Below are positions 485-35,532 of a stretch of DNA of 35,532 nt, one piece after another. The notes beneath the pieces are model-generated. The model was not told the origin of the DNA, made no database searches, and worked only from the letters and a program-made list of their open reading frames with translations. The position numbers and the translations under genes were made by a program. The first letter of the stretch is position 1, and each line of letters opens with the position of its first letter. This DNA comes from a virus: positions 1 to 35,532 of IMG/VR virus record IMGVR_UViG_3300009146_000171, one strand, 5' to 3'.

Positions 485-901
485 ATGCTCAAGCTACCGT
501 TAGCTTTGGAGCACGAACTAGAAAAAGAATTCAAGTTCACGCACAAACATTACAACGAAGCCGCACTACTACATACCTGGTCCGAAGGTCGAATCTTAAT
601 CGCTCCCCTCCCACCTTATCGACAAGGTTCCGTCGAACTCTACCTCAACAAAGCATTAAAATCTACAGCAGAATCAATTGTACTCTTACTCCCATGCGAT
701 GTGTCAACCGATTGGTTCAATCGCATTTGGGGCTTAGCCTTGCACGCACCGTGCCGGGTACAGATGAGATTCTTTAACGGACGAATCAAGTATGAAGGGG
801 AAAATAACCAATACCGCATATCGTCGTGTCTTGTCGTTATTCGAAACGCCGCCATCGAATCACAACCCAATCCCTCAGAACAATGTGAACGTACCGCGTA
901 A
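485..901 (+). CDS. Truncated, motif-degenerate Dam-like (phage N6-adenine methyltransferase family) protein
   Basis: This 138-residue protein starts at an ATG with GGAGG 6 bases upstream. The stretch from about residue 30 to 118 resembles the C-terminal half of phage DNA N6-adenine methyltransferases: a TW-(S)-E-GRILIAPLPPY segment where active enzymes have N/D-PPY, then a KA helix, VLLLPCDVSTDWFNRI (family pattern LlPa-tdt-WF), then FFNGRIKYEG (family pattern GR-kF). The first residue of the catalytic tetrad is Leu instead of Asp or Asn. The N-terminal part that would bind S-adenosylmethionine is missing. I therefore infer an inactive or repurposed derivative rather than a working methylase. 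Its last 110 bases overlap the glycosylase-polymerase gene in another frame. Confidence 0.6.
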   Translation: MLKLPLALEHELEKEFKFTHKHYNEAALLHTWSEGRILIAPLPPYRQGSVELYLNKALKSTAESIVLLLPCDVSTDWFNRIWGLALHAPCRVQMRFFNGRIKYEGENNQYRISSCLVVIRNAAIESQPNPSEQCERTA

Positions 902-3290
902 CGAACTACGCATTGATGTGCCGGGTATGGGCAACCCCAATGCGAAGATTGCTATTGTTGGTGAGGCGCCAGGTTATCAAGAGGCATTGAAGGGCGAGCC
1001 TTTCATCGGGCCTTCAGGCCACTTGTTGAATTCAGTTCTTCAAACCGCTGGCATTTCTAGATCGGAATGCTGGATCACTAACGTCTGTAAGATAGAGCCG
1101 CCCAAAGTAATGAAGAACGGGCAGCAAGTCTACGACGTAACCAAGGTACCTAACCTTCAAGCATATAAGGATTATCTAATCAATGAACTACGCACTATCA
1201 ATCCCAATATCATCCTTGCACTCGGCAACGTTGCCTTACAAGCTCTCACTGGAAACACGGGAATTCTCCAATGGCGAGGTTCTATTCTCAATGCACCTCT
1301 CCTCAACAAGAGAGTTATTCCCGCGTATCATCCAGCATATGTTCTCCGAACCGACTCGATTATTGACCGAAGCATCCTTGAGTTCGATGTCAAAAGATTA
1401 GTAGAGGAACAAAGCCTTGCACCCACCCCACATAGAAACCTCGTGGTCATCCGAGATTCCGCTCAACTTTACCGTTACATTGATAGATGGAAAGACAAGC
1501 CACTCACTACGTCCGATATTGAAACTCACAAGTCCATCCCGATTTGTGTTGGCTTTGCGCCTAGCCGCCATGAAGCTATCTCAATTCCTCTCTTCAATGA
1601 ATTATGGGGAGTTAGATTTGGTAATTATGCGGACAGAGAACTTGCTGAATTCTGGAGAGGTGTTGATATCCTACTCCGTAGTAAAAGAATCATCGGACAG
1701 AACTGGAAGTTCGACGAAGCAAAGCTCAGACAACTAGGATTCAGAGTACCGCACTTCCATGCTGATACAATGCACATGGCACACACGCGGTATCCTGAAC
1801 TACCCAAAGGCCAAGCATTCCTCACCTCTATTTGGACACGCGAACCGTATTACAAACTAGAAGGTAAAGAGTTCAATCCCAAGCGTGACTCGGCAGACAG
1901 ACTATTCCTGTACAATGGCAAGGACTGTGCGGTTGACTATGAAATCTTTGAGGTCTTAGAAAAAGAACTAGAAGCATACGGCGTTCGTGACTTCTATTAC
2001 AACTTCGTGCGGCACCTTCATCGTTTGTATTCCGACATCGAAGCTGAAGGAATCCTGTGCGATACAGAGGTAAGACAGTTCCTTAAAGAAAAGTACAACG
2101 CTCTATTAGTAATCAACGACGCAGAACTTGAAGCACTCTGTGGTCATCCAGTAAACGTTGCATCACCTAAACAAATAGGAGAATTATTGTATGGAGAACT
2201 TGGCCTACCAGTTAGAGATGGAACGGGAGAGGAAGTTGTTGTGGCTCTCCAAGCTAATCATGGTGAGAAGTTCCCTAAATGTATTCCAATCATTGATGGA
2301 ATCCTTAGAGGACGAGCCATACGAAAGACAATCGGAACTTACATCAACGCATGTCCGGACTATGATGGAAGATATCGAACCTCATATCAGATTGTTGGAA
2401 CCGAAACTGGACGAACTTCTACGAAAACTCTTAAACCACCTTCTCGTCCTGAACCTATCGGACTCGCCTTCCAAACACTAACAAAGCATTCAGAGTTAGG
2501 TGAGGACGTAATGTCTATGTTCGCACCTGACCCTGGCTATGTTTACTTAGAGTGTGACTTCAGTCAAGCCGAAGCTAGAGTAGTTGATCTATTATCAGAG
2601 GACTACGAAGGACTAGAAGAATACGGTAAGATTGATAAGCATCTCAAGACCGCACGTATAGTTCTTGGCCTTGCACCAGACTTTCCGTTATCGAAGAAGT
2701 CACCCGAAAGATTCTTAGGAAAGACTTCCCGCCACGCCGGTTCGTACGACATGGGTAAGAATCGTGCGATGATTCAGATGAATACCGATGCGAAGAAGTA
2801 CGGTATCAAGTTGCGAATCTCAGAGTACAAGGCAGGGAAAATATTAGAAAACTTCCATGCGGCCTACCCAAAGATTCGGAACGTGTTCCACGTAGAAGTA
2901 CAGAATGCGTTGGCTAAAGGCGGCCGTATTCTATGCAACCCGTTCGGTAGGAAACGTGAGTTCGGTGGGCGGTGGGGTGATAGACTATTCAAGGAAGCGT
3001 ATGCTTTCATTCCTCAGTCTACCGTTGGCGACGCAATCAAACGCGCCATGCTGTACGTTAAGGACCGCATTCCAGAAGCGCGCATCGTTATGGAGAAGCA
3101 TGATTCGATGGGCCTTTTGGTACCAAAGAATGAAGTCGAAGCATACGCACGAGTCATTCGGGAGGGAATGGAGATGGCCATTGACTTTGCCAAGTGTTCG
3201 ATTGTTCGTGGTAGCTTAATCATTCCTGCCGAATTCGAAATCGGTGAGAAGAACTTCAAGGACTTAATTGAATACAAGTTAGCCGCATGA
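792..3290 (+). CDS. Fused uracil-DNA glycosylase-like / family A DNA polymerase with 3'-5' exonuclease
   Basis: This is an 832-residue three-part protein. Residues ~45-205 look like a family 4/5-type uracil-DNA glycosylase: GEAPGYQEA (57-65), PFIGPSG (70-76), ITNVCKIEPP and the second active-site motif HPAYVLR (180-186). The N-terminal cysteines of Fe-S glycosylases are absent. Residues ~215-400 are a DEDDy exonuclease: DIETHK (242-247), NWKFD (304-308) and YNGKD (374-378). Residues ~400-832 are a Pol I-type polymerase: motif A DFSQAEARV (589-597), motif B RFLGKTSRHAGSYDMG (640-655) and motif C KHDSMG (769-774). Motif B has His where Pol I usually has Phe, Tyr or Leu, and YD where YG is usual; motif C has HDS in place of HDE. 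It is probably the replicative polymerase, with the glycosylase-like domain scanning for uracil. The ATG at 792 has a weak ribosome site, so a slightly later start (GTG near 882) is possible. The stop overlaps the next start (ATGA). Confidence 0.9.
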   Translation: MKGKITNTAYRRVLSLFETPPSNHNPIPQNNVNVPRNELRIDVPGMGNPNAKIAIVGEAPGYQEALKGEPFIGPSGHLLNSVLQTAGISRSECWITNVCKIEPPKVMKNGQQVYDVTKVPNLQAYKDYLINELRTINPNIILALGNVALQALTGNTGILQWRGSILNAPLLNKRVIPAYHPAYVLRTDSIIDRSILEFDVKRLVEEQSLAPTPHRNLVVIRDSAQLYRYIDRWKDKPLTTSDIETHKSIPICVGFAPSRHEAISIPLFNELWGVRFGNYADRELAEFWRGVDILLRSKRIIGQNWKFDEAKLRQLGFRVPHFHADTMHMAHTRYPELPKGQAFLTSIWTREPYYKLEGKEFNPKRDSADRLFLYNGKDCAVDYEIFEVLEKELEAYGVRDFYYNFVRHLHRLYSDIEAEGILCDTEVRQFLKEKYNALLVINDAELEALCGHPVNVASPKQIGELLYGELGLPVRDGTGEEVVVALQANHGEKFPKCIPIIDGILRGRAIRKTIGTYINACPDYDGRYRTSYQIVGTETGRTSTKTLKPPSRPEPIGLAFQTLTKHSELGEDVMSMFAPDPGYVYLECDFSQAEARVVDLLSEDYEGLEEYGKIDKHLKTARIVLGLAPDFPLSKKSPERFLGKTSRHAGSYDMGKNRAMIQMNTDAKKYGIKLRISEYKAGKILENFHAAYPKIRNVFHVEVQNALAKGGRILCNPFGRKREFGGRWGDRLFKEAYAFIPQSTVGDAIKRAMLYVKDRIPEARIVMEKHDSMGLLVPKNEVEAYARVIREGMEMAIDFAKCSIVRGSLIIPAEFEIGEKNFKDLIEYKLAA

Positions 3291-4477
3291 CAACATGGCT
3301 CGACGCCTTGATGTCGCAGACGAAAGACTTGGAATCACCACGGCGCTACTTCTATTTCGCTGGTCTTGCAACTCTATCCGCCGCGGCAGGTAGAAAGATA
3401 TGGCTCGATAGAGGTGGCGCGTACAAGTTATATCCGAATCTATTTGTCATGCTCGTCGGTCCCTCCGGCATTAAGAAAGGTTTGCCTGTACGTGTAGCAG
3501 AGAAGTTAGTAACTGAAATGAAATACACAAAGGTGATTGCAGGTAGATCATCAATCCAAGCAATCATCGAACACCTCGGCCATTCAACAATGGACACGAA
3601 CGGAGACGTAAGTAAAGATGCATCAGCCTTCATTGTCTCGGGAGAGTTTAGTCAATCCATCCTTAACGACGAACAAGCCTTTACGATTCTTACAGATCTA
3701 TACGACTCACAGTGGAAGGATGAACACACCAACCTTCTTAAGTCTGGTAAGTCAATACTTAAGAACGTATATCTCGTTATGCTCGGCGCGTCCAACCAAG
3801 TCCATCTACATTCGGTCATTGGACAACGAGACATTCAAGGTGGGTTCATTGCGCGAACGTTAATCGTCAATGAAGAAAAGATAAATAAGAAGAACGCGCT
3901 CGTTCGCAAATCTCCCTCGATGATTGACTACCCGAGTCTGGTAAAAAGGCTCGTTGAGATATCAAACCTCAAAGGAGAATTCGATTACGAACCGGACGCC
4001 GCTGACTTCTATGAACAATGGTATGGTGAATACGAACCAGACAAAGAGGATAACACTGGCACAAACAATCGAATGCCCGACACAATCTTAAAAGTCGCAA
4101 TGCTTCTTTCACTGTCACGAAACGATTCGATGTTGTTGACAGTAGAGGACTTGCACGATTCTATTGCAGTGTGTACTAGTTGTACTGTATCTACCCGACA
4201 GATAACTAGTAACGCCCCAAGCTCTACCACTACCGCGCAATCGAAACAGACGGCGGTTGTATTGGATGCTTTAATCCATTCGCCTATGTTCCGGTTAAGC
4301 CGAGCTGTATTGTTGAAGACACTATGGCGACACATGGATTCCTTTGAGCTAACCCGAGTAGCTGATACATTAAAGGAAGCCAAGGTCATACGAGAGGAAA
4401 CCTTAGGTGCCGAAACAACGTACGTTGTCCAGGAGCATGTGATAGCGGAATACATGCAGCATCAACAAGGTGCATAA
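3287..4477 (+). CDS. DUF3987-like helicase-type ATPase, replication
   Basis: This 396-residue protein overlaps the polymerase by 4 bases (ATGA), so the two are almost certainly co-translated. Around residues 51-66 it has LFVMLVGPSGIKKG, a P-loop-like motif preceded by a hydrophobic strand. It is degenerate because Gly replaces the Ser/Thr after the lysine. The later FIVSGEFSQ resembles the Walker B/catalytic-Glu segment of DUF3987-type primase-helicase proteins. The C-terminal ~80 residues look like a winged-helix domain (ALIHSPMFRLSRAVLLKTLW, TLKEAKVIREETLG). With its polymerase neighbour this suggests a replicative helicase or loader. The family call rests on motif reading only. Confidence 0.65.
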   Translation: MTTWLDALMSQTKDLESPRRYFYFAGLATLSAAAGRKIWLDRGGAYKLYPNLFVMLVGPSGIKKGLPVRVAEKLVTEMKYTKVIAGRSSIQAIIEHLGHSTMDTNGDVSKDASAFIVSGEFSQSILNDEQAFTILTDLYDSQWKDEHTNLLKSGKSILKNVYLVMLGASNQVHLHSVIGQRDIQGGFIARTLIVNEEKINKKNALVRKSPSMIDYPSLVKRLVEISNLKGEFDYEPDAADFYEQWYGEYEPDKEDNTGTNNRMPDTILKVAMLLSLSRNDSMLLTVEDLHDSIAVCTSCTVSTRQITSNAPSSTTTAQSKQTAVVLDALIHSPMFRLSRAVLLKTLWRHMDSFELTRVADTLKEAKVIREETLGAETTYVVQEHVIAEYMQHQQGA

Positions 4478-29863: not shown

Positions 29864-30221
29864 TACGTGCGTCCTTTGCACGAGCATCATCGAGTTGCAT
29901 TAACTCGGCCGCTCTCTGTTCTTGTCTCGATACGTGTTCCTGCCAACGTAGCTTAGATAAATCAGAGAGCCGTTTACGTTCCATCTGCTCTTTGCTTACG
30001 CTAGGTTCAAGAGTATGTGGACCGCGGTTTGAGTAATCAACTGGCGGGGTATCAGGAAACATTATCCTCTGTGCAAGTTCCTGATACTTTTCCCGTTCGA
30101 TTGAAAGCTGTGCTTCGAGATGCGATACCTGCTGGAATAAGGTTGTCTCAAGCTCACTGAACTTAGGCGGAATGAATACCGCTCTGAGGAACCTCATGAA
30201 TGCCCACCAGATTTGAATCAC
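29835..30221 (-). CDS. Membrane-anchored or coiled-coil protein following terminase
   Basis: This 128-residue protein starts at GTG 30221 with GAGG 8 bases upstream; the start overlaps the terminase stop (GTGA). The N-terminal MIQIWWAFMRFLRAVFIPPK is a hydrophobic, Trp-rich helix that may insert in a membrane. A coiled coil (HLEAQLSIEREKYQELAQRI) and a charged Glu/Arg/Gln helix (ERKRLSDLSKLRWQEHVSRQ) follow. The layout resembles i-spanin-type proteins, but without a partner o-spanin the call stays open. Confidence 0.6.
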   Translation of the reverse strand: MIQIWWAFMRFLRAVFIPPKFSELETTLFQQVSHLEAQLSIEREKYQELAQRIMFPDTPPVDYSNRGPHTLEPSVSKEQMERKRLSDLSKLRWQEHVSRQEQRAAELMQLDDARAKDARNETASGQSS

Positions 30222-31819
30222 CTTGCACGCCTCGGTCGAACGGAGAAGGGAACTACTTTAGAATCCGCATCTTGGGCTTTCATATAGAAGGATGTTAAAT
30301 CCCCCCGCTTCTGCCCGTTAACGAATTCCTTTTCCATCTTTGCCATGTGATCGAACCTGCGACCCGCTCGATACGAGGTATCTTTGTATCGTGAGCAAGC
30401 CTGTAGCAAGTATCGTACACCGTCGTATGGGTCATCACCATCGAACTCTTTAACGTCCTCAGGATTCTCAGGATCGTATACACAGTTCGGAATGGTATCG
30501 ATGACCGCTTGGCAGTTCTCAAATACTTGCAACTTCGGGAGGTTTGTTTCTTCTGGTTCCTCTTCGAAGAACTTTAAGTATTCTTCGTACTTGGTTTGCC
30601 CGTAGTTTCGGAGTATTTTCGAGGCGAGTTCGTTATCAAAAGTTCCAGCAATGTCTTTAGTTCTTGGTTTAGGGGTCCAGCGGAGATAGTCATGAAGGAG
30701 TAGTTTTCCCCCGATTCGGTCGTTAATAGCCCGCTCAGGCGTGTAACCCGAGTACTGGGTAAACTGTTGATCGATAGTTTCAACACCGCGGTTTTGCCAT
30801 GCTGAAGGATCGAGAGCCACTGACTCAAGGTTATCCCCTGAGGATAGCCGTTTGAATTCACTAGCCCACTCCGCAATCATCTTCCGCTTTTGAAAGTACT
30901 CCCGATATAAGTAAACTCTTCCATCGGGAGCAATAGCTGCCCATCCAATCCAAACATGAGCCGCAAATCCCCAGTCAATCGCCGCAACTCTGGGCCACCA
31001 AAAGGGTATTGCAAATGGTTCAATAACGTGACGAGCATTAAGAGGTTCGTCGGGCAGAGGTTCCAGTCTGAAGTTAAAGACTTGTCCTTCGAATGTATAC
31101 CAGTCTCCATACTTTTTGGCTCGTCTCTCTGCCTCTGTTGGTAAAAGTTCAAGCTTCGCTACGTACGTCGGATCGTTCTCTAACAGGTGACGATTGTCTT
31201 CTACTCTAGCCGGTAGATAGAACCGTTTTAATCCGGTTTTTCTATCTACAATTACTTTCATTCCCTCGCGCGCTGGATCAACAAATCTCTGTCTGACCCA
31301 TGTATGACCAATGTTTCCTGGGTTAGAACCTGCGCGAGTAATGGCTGGTAACTGACTGGTAGAAGATCGAACACGCGAAGCCACAAGATACAAGTATTGA
31401 TACTGAGTGAAGTGTGTGAGTTCATCCCAGCCAACGTAGTTGTATTCAACTCCGTCGTACTTGGTAATATCTTTTTCGTGCTCAGCGTGTCCGAAGGCTT
31501 GGTATCCGCCATTAGGGAATGTCCAACGCTTCTTCTGCTGATTGTACGTTGCACCAGTGGACTCATACCATTGATGCGAGCGAACAATAATTTCAGCTTC
31601 TAATTCAGGAAAGGTACGCCGTAGGATTAGACCTTTGTATCTTGGGTGCTGATGCCATCCTCTAATCAATGGCAGCATGTAAAGAATTTCGGTCTTTCCT
31701 GGTCCTGCGGCGCCACCATACAATGCCTCAAATATGGTATCCGGTAACGTAACAAGTGTTTCTTGTTTCCGTGTAGGACTCCATTCGTGAACTTGAGGTT
31801 GGGTTTCGATAGTTTCCAT
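30218..31819 (-). CDS. terL: Terminase large subunit
   Basis: This 533-residue protein holds a packaging ATPase followed by an RNase H-like nuclease. Walker A is GGAAGPGKT (35-43); Walker B plus catalytic Glu is NYVGWDE (127-133, D132/E133). The nuclease acidic residues appear as AIDWG (D282), ALDPSAW (D337) and a late DDPYDGVRYLL segment. It pumps DNA into proheads through the portal. Upstream lies the structured gap that separates it from the small terminase. No good Shine-Dalgarno is visible before ATG 31819, so translation may depend on structure in that gap. Confidence 0.95.
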   Translation of the reverse strand: METIETQPQVHEWSPTRKQETLVTLPDTIFEALYGGAAGPGKTEILYMLPLIRGWHQHPRYKGLILRRTFPELEAEIIVRSHQWYESTGATYNQQKKRWTFPNGGYQAFGHAEHEKDITKYDGVEYNYVGWDELTHFTQYQYLYLVASRVRSSTSQLPAITRAGSNPGNIGHTWVRQRFVDPAREGMKVIVDRKTGLKRFYLPARVEDNRHLLENDPTYVAKLELLPTEAERRAKKYGDWYTFEGQVFNFRLEPLPDEPLNARHVIEPFAIPFWWPRVAAIDWGFAAHVWIGWAAIAPDGRVYLYREYFQKRKMIAEWASEFKRLSSGDNLESVALDPSAWQNRGVETIDQQFTQYSGYTPERAINDRIGGKLLLHDYLRWTPKPRTKDIAGTFDNELASKILRNYGQTKYEEYLKFFEEEPEETNLPKLQVFENCQAVIDTIPNCVYDPENPEDVKEFDGDDPYDGVRYLLQACSRYKDTSYRAGRRFDHMAKMEKEFVNGQKRGDLTSFYMKAQDADSKVVPFSVRPRRAR

Positions 31820-31831
31820 CGAGATTAAAAG

Positions 31832-32076
31832 GGGTTGGAGGTAGCTACCGTGAGACTTGCTTGCCTGCTATTCCAACCCAAACCTAATACGAGCGCGAAG
31901 CGCGAGTAGGTTCGCGCATCTGTACAATACTATCGGTACGTGAATGTCTGTCCGCCACTCTTTCCCGACCATATTCTCCCGAGTACAGATGTGCGAATGT
32001 TGTCGGGTAAAGAACTAAAGTGATCCCGCAGATTGCATGGTGCAAGCATACAAGTAAGCGCAGTAGTTCTTTACCC
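31832..32076. other. Structured non-coding segment between the terminase genes
   Basis: About 250 bases with no credible gene. Four successive inverted repeats are visible: GGGTTGGA/TCCAACCC (31832-31839 with 31872-31879); AACCTA/TAGGTT (31881-31886 with 31907-31912) around GCGC-GAA-GCGC; a 15-base arm pair 31911-31925 with 31983-31997, one mismatch that is G-U on the plus strand; and a perfect 13-base pair 32005-32017 with 32064-32076. The last pair covers the terS stop codon. An RNA made from either strand would fold strongly. Candidate roles are a small RNA, a translation-control element for terL, an RNA-processing site, or a packaging (pac/cos) site. Confidence 0.55.
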
Positions 32077-32625
32077 AACTTCGATCTCAGGATAGTGATA
32101 AGTCTCACGTACCTGAGGTGCATTGATAACCATTTGGATGCGGTTATCGGAGAGGTTTACATTCTTGTCCCGCATGTTAGCGGCGACTTTGGAAAGATTT
32201 CCCGCGACGATTGATTTATCTTTCGCACCAAGCATCATGACATCCTGTTCACCTAATAAATTGAGAGCCATCATGGTTTTCTTGAGTGCTTCGTCTTCGA
32301 TCTTAACACGGTCCGCTTTACCCTTGTTCGCGATTGCGGTTAGAGCTTCGTCAGGTTCGCGGGAGTTATCTAATCCATTCGCGTAGTTTGAGACTGTGCT
32401 CTCTGCTACGTTGAATTCTTTGGCTACGTCTACCTGCTTCACGCCTGGTTCGTTTGCGAGCGCGGCAATCGTATGCTTCACGTATTCAGGAATGGCAACA
32501 GTACCTTGCCCGCGTCCAATGTTTTCCTTTTGTGCTACGACAAGCGTAGGGATTTCAGTCCGAGCGAGATAGTTTCGCTCAGGTGACATATTACGCTCAG
32601 CCGTTTCACGCTTCAAAAACATCAT
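32071..32625 (-). CDS. Probable terminase small subunit (HTH protein)
   Basis: The ATG at 32625 gives 184 residues; another ATG follows at once at 32622. A start at 32673 can be excluded if the promoter at 32664-32693 is real, because transcription would begin near 32657. Residues ~63-84 form a helix-turn-helix (VKQVDVAKEFNVAESTVSNY). A Lys/Asp/Glu-rich helical C-terminal half and a beta-like end (QVRETYHYPEIEVG) follow. Position as first gene of the late operon, before the large terminase, supports DNA recognition for packaging. A transcription regulator is the alternative. Confidence 0.65.
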   Translation of the reverse strand: MMFLKRETAERNMSPERNYLARTEIPTLVVAQKENIGRGQGTVAIPEYVKHTIAALANEPGVKQVDVAKEFNVAESTVSNYANGLDNSREPDEALTAIANKGKADRVKIEDEALKKTMMALNLLGEQDVMMLGAKDKSIVAGNLSKVAANMRDKNVNLSDNRIQMVINAPQVRETYHYPEIEVG

Positions 32626-32663
32626 ATGGCACCAGATCCTATGGGTGGTAGACCCTGGCGCTG

Positions 32664-32693
32664 ATTCTACCATAGGGAGCGGCTAGGTGTCAA
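32664..32693 (-). promoter_or_regulatory. Sigma70-like extended -10 promoter for the late operon
   Basis: On the minus strand, TTGACA (32693-32688) and TAGAAT (32669-32664) are 18 bases apart, with TG-G before the -10 (extended -10). Transcription would start near 32657 and run left into terS and the virion genes. Confidence 0.7.
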
Positions 32694-32855
32694 CATAAGA
32701 GTTGTGTATAGTAGATACGGGTACGGGCTATGGTGCCTATGTTTAAGATGGTACCTATTGGTTATTTTTTGAAAATTGGTACGGGGGAATTCAATTTGGG
32801 GTTCTTATATTTAGTTAATCCATACTGAGCTATCGAGCGCCGTTAACTCTTTTAT

Positions 32856-32870
32856 GGCGGGGGACCCGCC
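32856..32870. repeat. GC hairpin without T-tract
   Basis: GGCGGG/CCCGCC perfect 6-bp stem around a 3-base loop. No T-run follows on either strand, so a terminator is not supported. Confidence 0.5.
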
Positions 32871-32911
32871 GAGACGCCCGTAGGGGGGTGTGTGTTATAA
32901 CATTAATTGTT

Positions 32912-32939
32912 TTGACACGCATAACAATAATGGTATGGC
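32912..32939 (+). promoter_or_regulatory. Possible rightward promoter
   Basis: TTGACA (32912-32917) with TATGGC (32934-32939) at 16-base spacing. The -35 is perfect and the -10 is poor. If used, it would transcribe the structured segment 33241-34020 and the small genes beyond. Confidence 0.3.
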
Positions 32940-32991
32940 ACGAATCCTGCCAGCATTACGCTTTCCGTACTCTAAAATACAAAGTACTTAT

Positions 32992-33063
32992 GGCATTGTA
33001 TTTGCTACGCGCGCGCACACGCACCGACTATCTAAAGATTGGCATGCATTGTGCTACGCGCGC
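32992..33063. repeat. Imperfect ~23-bp direct repeats with alternating CG
   Basis: Copies at 32992-33014 and 33041-33063 both start GGCAT and end TGCTACGCGCGC; 12 bases are identical at the end. A CGCGC-AAT-GCGCG hairpin follows the second copy. Confidence 0.5.
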
Positions 33064-33187
33064 AATGCGCGGGCTCCTCTACTACGCGTGTACACGGACT
33101 ATCGAAGGTATAGTTGGCACGGAAAAGAATCTCGCCGGGAATGGAACGAACCGAACGCCAGTCCCGTCTAAGCAGTGGTAGTCGGTA

Positions 33188-33209
33188 GTACGGTAACGGT
33201 ACGGTAACG
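33188..33209. repeat. Two perfect tandem 11-bp repeats
   Basis: GTACGGTAACG occurs at 33188-33198 and again at 33199-33209. GGTAGTCG also recurs at 33177-33184 and 33219-33226. The 11-bp period matches the tandem repeats at 35394-35459, although the unit sequence differs. Confidence 0.6.
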
Positions 33210-33608
33210 AAGTAGAGGGTAGTCGAGGGTACGGAACAAAAGCCAATCGGCTAACGTCTAATCATTCAGTACCGCGTAATGCGGACTCGGCGCAAACGAC
33301 TGGAGCGTATTCCTCCAAGGTATTACTCGGATGATTCGTCATAGTTGCAGAGCTATCCCGTCTGACGGTAATGTGTCTGCGCGAATCGGTTAGTCCCGAG
33401 GTTCTTTGTAGATATAAGTGTCGCCTTTTGGCGGAGCACTTCATACCTTGACCGTATCGCCGCCGGTGTACGCGTCCCGAGAGTAGCCCGAGAGGTTACA
33501 GCCTGACCGCTAGTAAGGTAGGCAGGGAACGTCAAACCGCAGGAAACACGATACGGTCATGACGGGAACCAAACGCCTAGCAAGCGAATGATTCCCTAGA
33601 AAACAAAA

Positions 33609-33955
33609 GAATCCTAACATTCCAACTCCAATGGAATGATTGAGGGATTCAAAAGAACCCGGCTCTACGGTACACGGAACACGATAGCCCAAAGCGAGCC
33701 CGTATCGACCAGTCGATAGGCTCCCCCATCCTAACGCTACTGTTGCCACTCCGACACTCCGGGTTCTCTTGAATCCCTTAACCATTCCATGTAAAGGAAG
33801 GATTGAGGATTCTACAGTACGCTTGCACTGGACGGCTACCACGGCGGAAAGGCAACATATCCGGCCAACATGGTGCGGCTTTACACTTAGCCTCCGACCG
33901 TACGGTACAATGCCAATTCCTAATCCAAGCGTACTGTTGAATCCTTAATCCTTCT
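33609..33955. repeat. Five alternating inverted copies of a ~17-nt element
   Basis: A GAATCC-TTAA-C-ATTCC-type element occurs at 33609-33624 and 33771-33789, and in a variant form at 33940-33955. Its reverse complement occurs at 33632-33650 and 33796-33812. Each can pair with its left or its right neighbour, so mutually exclusive helices are possible. The direct copies are ~162 and ~169 bases apart. After each inner hairpin there is a different long stem (AAAAGAACCCGG-type, then TACAGTACGCTTG-type) with a ~96-100-nt loop, so the architecture repeats while the stem sequence changes. Confidence 0.6.
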
Positions 33956-33963
33956 GGTTGTTT

Positions 33964-34020
33964 GTTCGTCAGGGTACAGGAAGGGAAACAACATGCTTTC
34001 CTTCCTGTACTCGCACGAAC
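33964..34020 (+). promoter_or_regulatory. Long stem-loop directly before the bL12-like gene
   Basis: GTACAGGAAGG-G-AAA (33974-33988) pairs with TTTCCTTCCTGTAC (33997-34010) with one bulged G, and outer GTTCGT/ACGAAC (33964-33969 with 34015-34020) extends it. The ribosome site AAGGAG begins ~10 bases later. It may protect or regulate the mRNA, or form the end of the structured RNA. Confidence 0.6.
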
Positions 34021-34041
34021 CAATTAACCAAGGAGAAAAGA

Positions 34042-34347
34042 ATGAGCACGATTGTCAAGTTCGCACTGCGCGAGGTTATCACGAACGAAAACCTTAACCT
34101 CTCGGTCAATACGCGGAACGAAGCACTGGACGAATTGATTCAGATGGAACGCAACGAAGCGCGTAACACTGGTGATTCGGACCCGGTTCGTTGGCACGGT
34201 CACATGCAAGAGTTTCGGCAACACCGCGCTAACAACTCCGGCGGTCGAATCGGAACCATCAAGTTGGTCCGGCAGGTTTTGAACTGCGGATTGTCCGAAG
34301 CACTCATCATTGTCAAGGGTATCGAAACCCAAGACGGTATCGTGTAG
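34042..34347 (+). CDS. Small protein with ribosomal bL12 C-terminal-like domain
   Basis: The ATG at 34042 has AAGGAG 6 bases upstream and gives 101 residues. The N-terminal ~65 residues are charged and helical (VNTRNEALDELIQMERNEAR). The last ~30 residues, GRIGTIKLVRQVLNCGLSEA followed by LIIVKGIE, match the bL12 (L7/L12) C-terminal pattern (K-I-x-x-I-K-x-V-R, GL-x-EA-x-x-x-V). That domain of the ribosomal stalk binds translation GTPases. The N-terminal dimer domain of true bL12 is absent. Free bL12-type domains are known in viruses. A role in steering host translation is inferred. The stop overlaps the next GTG (TAGTG). Confidence 0.65.
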   Translation: MSTIVKFALREVITNENLNLSVNTRNEALDELIQMERNEARNTGDSDPVRWHGHMQEFRQHRANNSGGRIGTIKLVRQVLNCGLSEALIIVKGIETQDGIV

Positions 34348-34502: not shown

Positions 34503-34576
34503 GGGATATGAAACGGGAAAGGAGGTAAAGCCTATCCCGTAGCCTGAAATGACAGGCTTTGAAGATTACCCTAATC
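34503..34576 (+). promoter_or_regulatory. Leader with an orphan Shine-Dalgarno and competing hairpins
   Basis: AAAGGAGGT (34518-34526) is an excellent ribosome site but has no start codon at a usable distance. It lies in the loop of ACGGGA/TCCCGT (34513-34518 with 34535-34540). GGGATA (34503-34508) can instead take the same 3' partner (TATCCC, 34533-34538). AAAGCCT/AGGCTTT (34527-34533 with 34554-34560) competes with GCCTG/CAGGC (34542-34546 with 34553-34557). GATTA/TAATC (34564-34576) sits just before the real ribosome site of the next gene. This fits a regulatory switch or ribosome standby site. Confidence 0.45.
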
Positions 34577-34595
34577 TTTAAAGGAGGGAATGTTA

Positions 34596-34808
34596 GTGGA
34601 TTGCAGAAAGCGATACAGGTTCTTTAATCACTGTGATAGGCTGCTACTTTGGCAGATTGAAACGGTGGAAAAAGAAAGACACATTGTTAATCGTACGCTG
34701 CGAAAGAATTACAGGAAGTCTCTACTCAATCGTGCAGTCGAACGTGTCGTGAGGCACAATCGAGAGTACATGACGAAGATTTTCCTTGACACCTCTCGCC
34801 GTGTGTGA
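34596..34808 (+). CDS. Small basic protein, unknown
   Basis: GTG 34596 is chosen because AAAGGAGG ends 8 bases upstream; an ATG at 34590 is too close. The 70-residue product is strongly basic and helical (CRKRYRFFNHCDRLLLWQIE, then RTLRKNYRKSLLNRAVERVV) and ends in a tail IFLDTSRRV. It may bind nucleic acid. The last codons contain the -35 of the following promoter, so coding and promoter sequences overlap. It is not recognised. Confidence 0.65.
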   Translation: MDCRKRYRFFNHCDRLLLWQIETVEKERHIVNRTLRKNYRKSLLNRAVERVVRHNREYMTKIFLDTSRRV

Positions 34809-34814
34809 TACAAT
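34786..34814 (+). promoter_or_regulatory. Strong sigma70-type promoter with extended -10
   Basis: TTGACA (34786-34791), 17-base spacer and TACAAT (34809-34814) preceded by TG-A. The -35 is perfect, the spacing optimal and the -10 differs from consensus by one base. Transcription starts near 34821 at a GC-rich hairpin and reads the 34878-35312 gene, stopping at the terminator at 35322. Confidence 0.9.
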
Positions 34815-34877: not shown

Positions 34878-35312
34878 ATGCCACGTATTGCTACGAAGTT
34901 CGATGACCACCAGACACTCGGCGCGTTCGAACAGACTCCGATTGTCAACGATTCGCTCACTTCCGAAACGACAACGATTGTTGCTTCGGACAAGGAATCG
35001 GCGAAGTCCGGTGAAGTTTCCGCGATTGTTTACAAGCTCGCGGAGAATGCTTCGGACCCAATCGATGCGGCTTTGGCTTTGTTCGGCGGTTCGCCGGCGG
35101 AGTTGGCGAAGTTCGCAATCGGCGCGTATAACGATGACATTCGTTTGCGTGCGAAGTCTTTCATTGTGACGAGCATCGAAGGTCCGGAGAAGATGGTTGC
35201 TCGTGTTGTTCGTCGGATTGCGAAGGAACTCAATCTTGATGAGGCGAACGTTCTCGCCAAGGTCAAGGCGAATCCGGCGTATCTGGATATGTTGCTTTCG
35301 CTCGCGAAGTAA
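34878..35312 (+). CDS. Highly expressed-looking small helical protein, unknown
   Basis: This 144-residue protein is the only gene between a strong promoter and a strong terminator, so it forms a single-gene transcript. The ribosome site is AGGA ~7 bases before the ATG. The N-terminal ~45 residues are Thr/Ser-rich and extended (MPRIATKFDDHQTLGAFEQT); the rest is helical (SAIVYKLAENASDPIDAALA, EGPEKMVARVVRRIAKELNL, ANPAYLDMLLSLAK). There is no membrane or catalytic motif. An early, abundant host-directed or DNA-associated protein is possible, but nothing identifies it. Codons are richer in GCG/GTT/TTG than in neighbours. Confidence 0.75.
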   Translation: MPRIATKFDDHQTLGAFEQTPIVNDSLTSETTTIVASDKESAKSGEVSAIVYKLAENASDPIDAALALFGGSPAELAKFAIGAYNDDIRLRAKSFIVTSIEGPEKMVARVVRRIAKELNLDEANVLAKVKANPAYLDMLLSLAK

Positions 35313-35321
35313 CATTCACTC

Positions 35322-35360
35322 AATCCCGTATGGTTCTCCTGACCATACGGGATTTTCTTT
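35322..35360 (+). terminator. Strong intrinsic terminator
   Basis: AATCCCGTATGGT (35322-35334) pairs perfectly with ACCATACGGGATT (35342-35354) around a 7-base loop and is followed by TTCTTT. It ends the single-gene transcript. Confidence 0.95.
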
Positions 35361-35393
35361 GCCTGAAAATAAGTTATTCTCGGGGTGTCGTAG

Positions 35394-35459
35394 GATACCA
35401 CTACGATACCACCGGGATGCCACTGTAATGCCACTGCGATACCACTAGCATTCCACTAC
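35394..35459. repeat. Six tandem 11-bp repeats (iteron-like)
   Basis: Units of 11 bases follow without gaps: GATACCACTAC, GATACCACCGG, GATGCCACTGT, AATGCCACTGC, GATACCACTAG and CATTCCACTAC (consensus GATACCACTRC). The strict 11-base period puts each copy on the same face of the helix, as for iterons or operator arrays. They follow a terminator and precede a 73-base stretch (to 35532) with nothing recognisable. A replication origin or regulator-binding array is inferred. Confidence 0.8.
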
Positions 35460-35532
35460 ATTCTCAATAGGTGGGTTGCGTCCTAAGTCCTTGCAGGTCA
35501 AGCACTTGCGAGGATTTAGTAGGCTACCTCCC

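Follow-up and report, generated by a model that had tools for sequence, protein, structure and literature searches.

The early region of T7-type phages begins with tandem promoters near the genome end, followed by hairpins that precede small early genes. In T7 itself simple RNase III hairpins lie between the genes, and we know of no 750-nt conserved structured RNA there. The pRNA of phi29 is a structured phage RNA whose gene is also near the genome end, and it is far shorter than the element described below. Two larger RNAs, GOLLD and ROOL, come closer. GOLLD is a phage-borne noncoding RNA, in many cases longer than 800 nt, with an elaborate fold in which one part is conserved and another is variable; its function is unknown (PMC12286853). 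ROOL, about 660 nt long, occurs in phages and prophages, has a complex fold with pseudoknots, and is without a known protein partner (PMC12286853). Among bacteria and phages, very large structured RNAs form a small set, most of them lacking a function. A covariation-backed family with a predicted promoter would broaden this set.

The DNA considered here is from an uncultured bacterial virus, IMG/VR record IMGVR_UViG_3300009146_000171. The stretch spans all of its 35,532 bases, and we refer to it as the window. The virus is a tailed dsDNA phage, with genes for a terminase large subunit (30218-31819, minus strand), a family A DNA polymerase carrying a uracil-DNA-glycosylase-like domain (792-3290, plus strand) and a DUF3987/primase-helicase-like protein (3287-4477, plus strand). 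Tail-like and adaptor-like proteins are among the products of the leftward gene block. None of its named relatives is close; the top terminase identity in a phage collection is 34%. The element has a leftward regulator-like gene, heading the late side (32071-32673, minus strand), on one side and rightward small genes on the other. This noncoding stretch of about 750 bases (33268 to about 34025, plus strand) very probably gives rise to a large RNA with an intricate fold.

This RNA is a family outside the RNA catalogue Rfam. A cmscan of the window returned nothing at the gathering threshold, nor at E<=10, and two related sequences (L023 and L026, introduced below) gave no match at E<=5. GOLLD, ROOL and pRNA were rejected as its identity on these grounds. 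A DNA similarity search against phage and plasmid collections returned nothing, and searches of the open-licence literature turned up no description of the element.

Folding, homologues and covariation

The plus strand of 33241-34040 folds with an energy of -316.6, against -234.2 +/- 7.1 for shuffled sequences (z -11.7; 0 of 20 shuffles equal it), and the adjoining flank 32674-33260 reaches a z of only -1.45. A first-pass annotation of this DNA had placed the element at 33241-34020. The structured span is real, but we would shift the RNA start to about 33268, as 33233-33261 is promoter-like. Both of the long inverted repeats to which that annotation had drawn attention are present. One is exactly as described, 32 nt with 29 matches (91%; 33631-33662/33759-33790), while the other has the 27 matches reported (93%; 33797-33825/33926-33954) over 29 nt rather than 30. 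A third, at 33961-33990/33994-34023, had not been singled out. The perfect 11-bp helix that was said to close the element is most likely UGACCGUAUCG/CGAUACGGUCA (33449-33459/33549-33559), the sole one found; what it encloses is an inner core rather than the entire element. An outer helix overlapping the -10 (from 33257 on) is unconserved in L023 and was rejected as part of the RNA.

A terminase search gave 16 loci. The 101-aa protein encoded directly downstream of the element recovered this very virus from a different sample (L021/L008/L025, 100%) and L023, which is identical to L006/L022 over the element region; with an alignment as query the search added L026. The conserved 144-aa early protein gained no new genome, and exact RNA motif scans for wider homologues returned only the window and L023, or these two and L026. 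Loci L027-L038 (except the L026 contig) and L039-L048 were rejected as chance matches of motif patterns. The comparison set consists of three distinct sequences from one phage group: the window, L023 and L026. In the core, L023 (1324-1668) is 78% identical to the window (33443-33792). The L026 RNA is much diverged, and its likeness to the other two is patchy. Because MAFFT alignments of L026 with them were poor at the level of structure, its pairs were registered by hand. Its membership is nevertheless supported independently of the hand alignment, since a CM made from the window and L023 only (R1, built on 33447-33562) matches L026 at 1134-1271 with 22 bits (E 0.014), in the strand and place expected. 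Over 173 kb of relatives, the core CM found the window, L023 and L031/L026, and no others.

When the window and L023 cores are folded independently, 84 of 105-108 pairs are common to both. The window fold, projected on L023 through a sequence-only alignment, leaves 93.9% of cells paired, and in 17 pairs both partners have changed with pairing retained. Slid structures give 0-3 such changes, and shuffles give a mean of 8.6 (0 of 500 reach 17). With the hand-registered L026 included, the three-way count has 88 pairs in 12 helices with 16 two-sided changes and 0 broken pairs, a count that hand registration biases toward unbroken pairs; the window-L023 projection is the fairer test. The fold has been kept by evolution, as seen from the paired mutations in the two related viruses. 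The core alignment of the window and L023 also contains several 1-nt gaps, and no ORF is common to both, which argues against protein coding; with the reading frame not conserved, a coding reading was rejected. The original proposal, a large structured RNA in a segment with no credible gene, is thus supported by an energy far below that of shuffles, by compensated changes in both homologues and by unconserved coding.

Predicted anatomy of the RNA

Two copies of GGAAC-N18-GTCTAA, which we take to fit an ECF/sigma-E-type promoter, lie on the plus strand at 33143-33171 and, 90 bp after the first, at 33233-33261. These are the only two sites in the window, with 0.21 expected for a looser pattern. 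A homologous pair is present in L023 at 1068 and 1157, 89 bp apart. L026 has TTGACA elements in place of the GGAAC repeats, read by eye at 672, 854 and 942; a sigma-70-type scan did not return them. Since the repeats end at 33261, the RNA probably starts near 33268, at CAGUACCG, which is conserved in the window and L023.

From this predicted start the RNA would open with a 5' domain (33268-33442) that is poorly conserved but for the hairpin CCGU/ACGG at 33358-33368, whose pairs have both partners altered in L023 as well as in L026. Next comes the conserved core, P1-P5 (33449-33559), closed by the 11-bp helix, and then hairpin P6 (33564-33596). The P5 loop GCUAG (33509-33513) is predicted to kiss CUAGC (33577-33581) in the P6 loop CUAGCAA. 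This pair is the only conserved extra stem of at least 5 bp among all unpaired columns, and 2 of 300 column shuffles reach such a stem. On this model a P5-P6 kissing loop is probable; the pair is not seen in L026, and as it does not vary, covariation has no bearing on it.

Hairpin A (33631-33790) has a lower stem, UUGAGGAUUC/GAAUCCUUAA, that is almost unchanged across all homologues, an inner stem that covaries, and an apical part, UAUCGA-CCAG-UCGAUA, that is identical in the window and L023. A stem so nearly invariant is possibly bound or cut by something, and it may be a binding or cleavage target. Hairpin B (33796-33955) is a partial repeat of the hairpin A lower stem and is missing from L023. 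The terminal hairpin (33955-34030) lies immediately 5' of a ribosome binding site; in L023 and L026 its shape is kept with a largely different sequence and compensation. All these features are on the plus strand. We also note that more hairpins of the GGATTCAA/TTGAATCC type precede other early genes (L026:1997-2035 and 1534-1573). Their stem motif is that of hairpin A, and they could possibly represent a common processing or binding site.

Neighbouring genes and competing explanations

The 101-aa gene (34042-34347, plus strand) is the first after the RNA. The C-terminus of its product, GRIxTIKxVRxxxxCGLxxAxIIVKGIE, bears a weak likeness to the bL12 C-terminal domain at its helical hairpin (Pfam E 0.036, which does not pass the cut-off). 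Its AlphaFold model is all-helical (pLDDT 77, pTM 0.49), and the fold has no match in the PDB. Further rightward are a 72-aa gene (34590-34808), with homologous genes in relatives, and a 144-aa gene (34878-35312), conserved across the phage group, with a sigma-70-like promoter upstream (34786-34814). A terminator-like hairpin (35322-35354, plus strand like both genes) may end the putative early transcription unit; such sites are as frequent in this DNA as chance predicts (4 found, 4.0 expected). In front of the 72-aa gene lies a second intergenic leader that is conserved, GATATGAAACGGGA-hairpin-GCCTGAAATGACAGGC-TATGAAGATTACC (window about 34505-34580, L023 about 2245-2315), and its two hairpins have no Rfam match. 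After the 144-aa gene, at 35385-35460, GATACCACT-like repeats occur in runs that fold strongly; L021 has inverted copies related to them.

The RNA is an optional module. Three relatives, L009, L010 (with the near-identical L011, L013 and L017) and L018, keep this locus intact, with the regulator, the small early genes and the gene for the 144-aa protein, and the CM search over 173 kb finds no RNA in them; nor does a fast genome search, a weaker test that missed L026. The three genomes that have the RNA are also those that have the 101-aa gene, and the others yielded neither. They are not an obligate pair, however. In L023 the 101-aa homologue (1750-2073) adjoins the RNA as it does in the window, but in L026 a different gene comes directly after the RNA and the 101-aa copy (3651-3923) lies some 2.1 kb farther along, so that the RNA is not bound to any single gene.

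We lean slightly towards the view that 33268 to about 34025 on the plus strand is the gene for a stand-alone large structured RNA of a tailed phage. Transcription would be early, from the tandem promoter-like repeats that head the rightward early operon. The RNA would fold into a compact core, P1-P6, with the probable kissing loop, then one or two long hairpins, and last the terminal hairpin, which adjoins the first ribosome binding site. Cleavage at that hairpin would probably release the RNA, which, like GOLLD and ROOL, would then act on its own account in the role of scaffold, decoy or assembly.

No terminator was found between the RNA and the 101-aa gene, so that it may instead be a leader. 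The element would then be a giant untranslated start of the early-operon mRNA, acting in cis, with its fold, chiefly the terminal hairpin, governing how stable the mRNA is, how RNase III processes it or how the first gene is translated. In all three sequences the terminal hairpin sits at the ribosome binding site and its shape is kept through many compensatory changes. The RNA and the 101-aa gene adjoin in two of the three, and in each case the RNA precedes the first early gene. But in L026 this is a different gene, conservation peaks in the core, 400-600 nt before the start codon, and some 540-770 nt would make a very long leader. We regard this explanation, the chief competitor of a stand-alone RNA, as unlikely, though worth keeping in mind.

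A replication origin, or a packaging or recombination site, with a single strand that folds, is a less likely reading, and we think it improbable. Such a DNA-level site would suit the good folds on both strands, the nearby terminase genes and, in L026, a distance of about 0.8 kb to contig ends that share 187 bp. It would not suit promoter-like repeats that point into the element, a plus strand that folds much better than the minus strand in L023, or the missing RNA in L009, L010 and L018. An element that does fit such a site, and that every relative conserves, lies at about 32825-32880 and is not part of the RNA. This GC-rich element, GAGCTATCgAGCGCCgTTAACtt...GGGGGACCCGC..GGACGCCC, is at about 700-765 in L023, at about 12680-12740 in L016 (reverse complement) and upstream of the terminase in L009, L010 and L018. 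It is conserved also in the relatives that have no RNA and is a candidate cos/packaging site, origin or regulatory site. As to the L026 contig (47.2 kb; end in L016), the 187 bp shared by its ends (L026:1-187, one mismatch) are upstream of the RNA and may be a direct terminal repeat or an assembly overlap. If they are a terminal repeat, the RNA would sit at the genome end.

That transcript and function belong to the minus strand we consider quite improbable. The minus strand of the window element does fold with a z of -10.9, and the claim that G-U pairs favour the plus strand is not decisive by itself, as an unbiased count gives the minus strand equally many. Energies discriminate the strands in L023 (z -8.6 plus, -4.6 minus), not in the window or L026 (z -4.7 plus, -4.6 minus). 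An invariant G-U pair of hairpin A, however, would on the minus strand turn into a C-A mismatch in every homologue. A plus-strand RNA is supported by the promoter-like repeats, by the direction of the flanking early operon and by the strand energy difference in L023.

A mobile element remnant, bearing an intron or ribozyme, at the early operon start is very improbable: the RNA is indeed found in some relatives and absent at the same place in others, but no group I or group II intron and no ribozyme family in Rfam scored above threshold in the window, L023 or L026, and no associated mobility gene was seen.

Comparison with known phage RNAs

If the stand-alone RNA reading is correct, one may go further and suggest a new large phage RNA class, separate from GOLLD and ROOL and made very early in infection from tandem promoters heading the early operon, which would take part in host takeover by working as an RNA machine or as a particle that assembles itself. 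This is possible, but we offer it with some doubt.

The first-pass annotation had likened the element to GOLLD and ROOL. The likeness stands for size and kind; it does not extend to family, there being no Rfam match. Any kinship in behaviour would be an analogy drawn from size, phage origin, the complexity of the fold and the kissing loop; homology does not enter into it. Like GOLLD, the element is phage-borne and noncoding, is of similar size and has an elaborate fold with conserved and variable parts. GOLLD is often near tRNAs; our element heads an early operon, and there is no tRNA in the window or in nine related loci. With ROOL it shares large size, noncoding nature and a probable pseudoknot (one kissing loop); here the structure is backed by covariation and the reading frame is not kept. 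It differs from ROOL in lacking an Rfam match and a tRNA island, and in having only one predicted kissing interaction. GOLLD assembles into a homo-oligomeric nanocage, and ROOL is a highly abundant transcript. The phi29 pRNA is another parallel; the window encodes a canonical large terminase and has no Rfam pRNA match. In layout, the T7 early region is similar, with tandem promoters near the genome end, then hairpins, then small early genes. That this one heads an early operon and stands apart from tRNA genes suggests that the ornate RNAs of phages do not occur solely in the company of tRNA islands.
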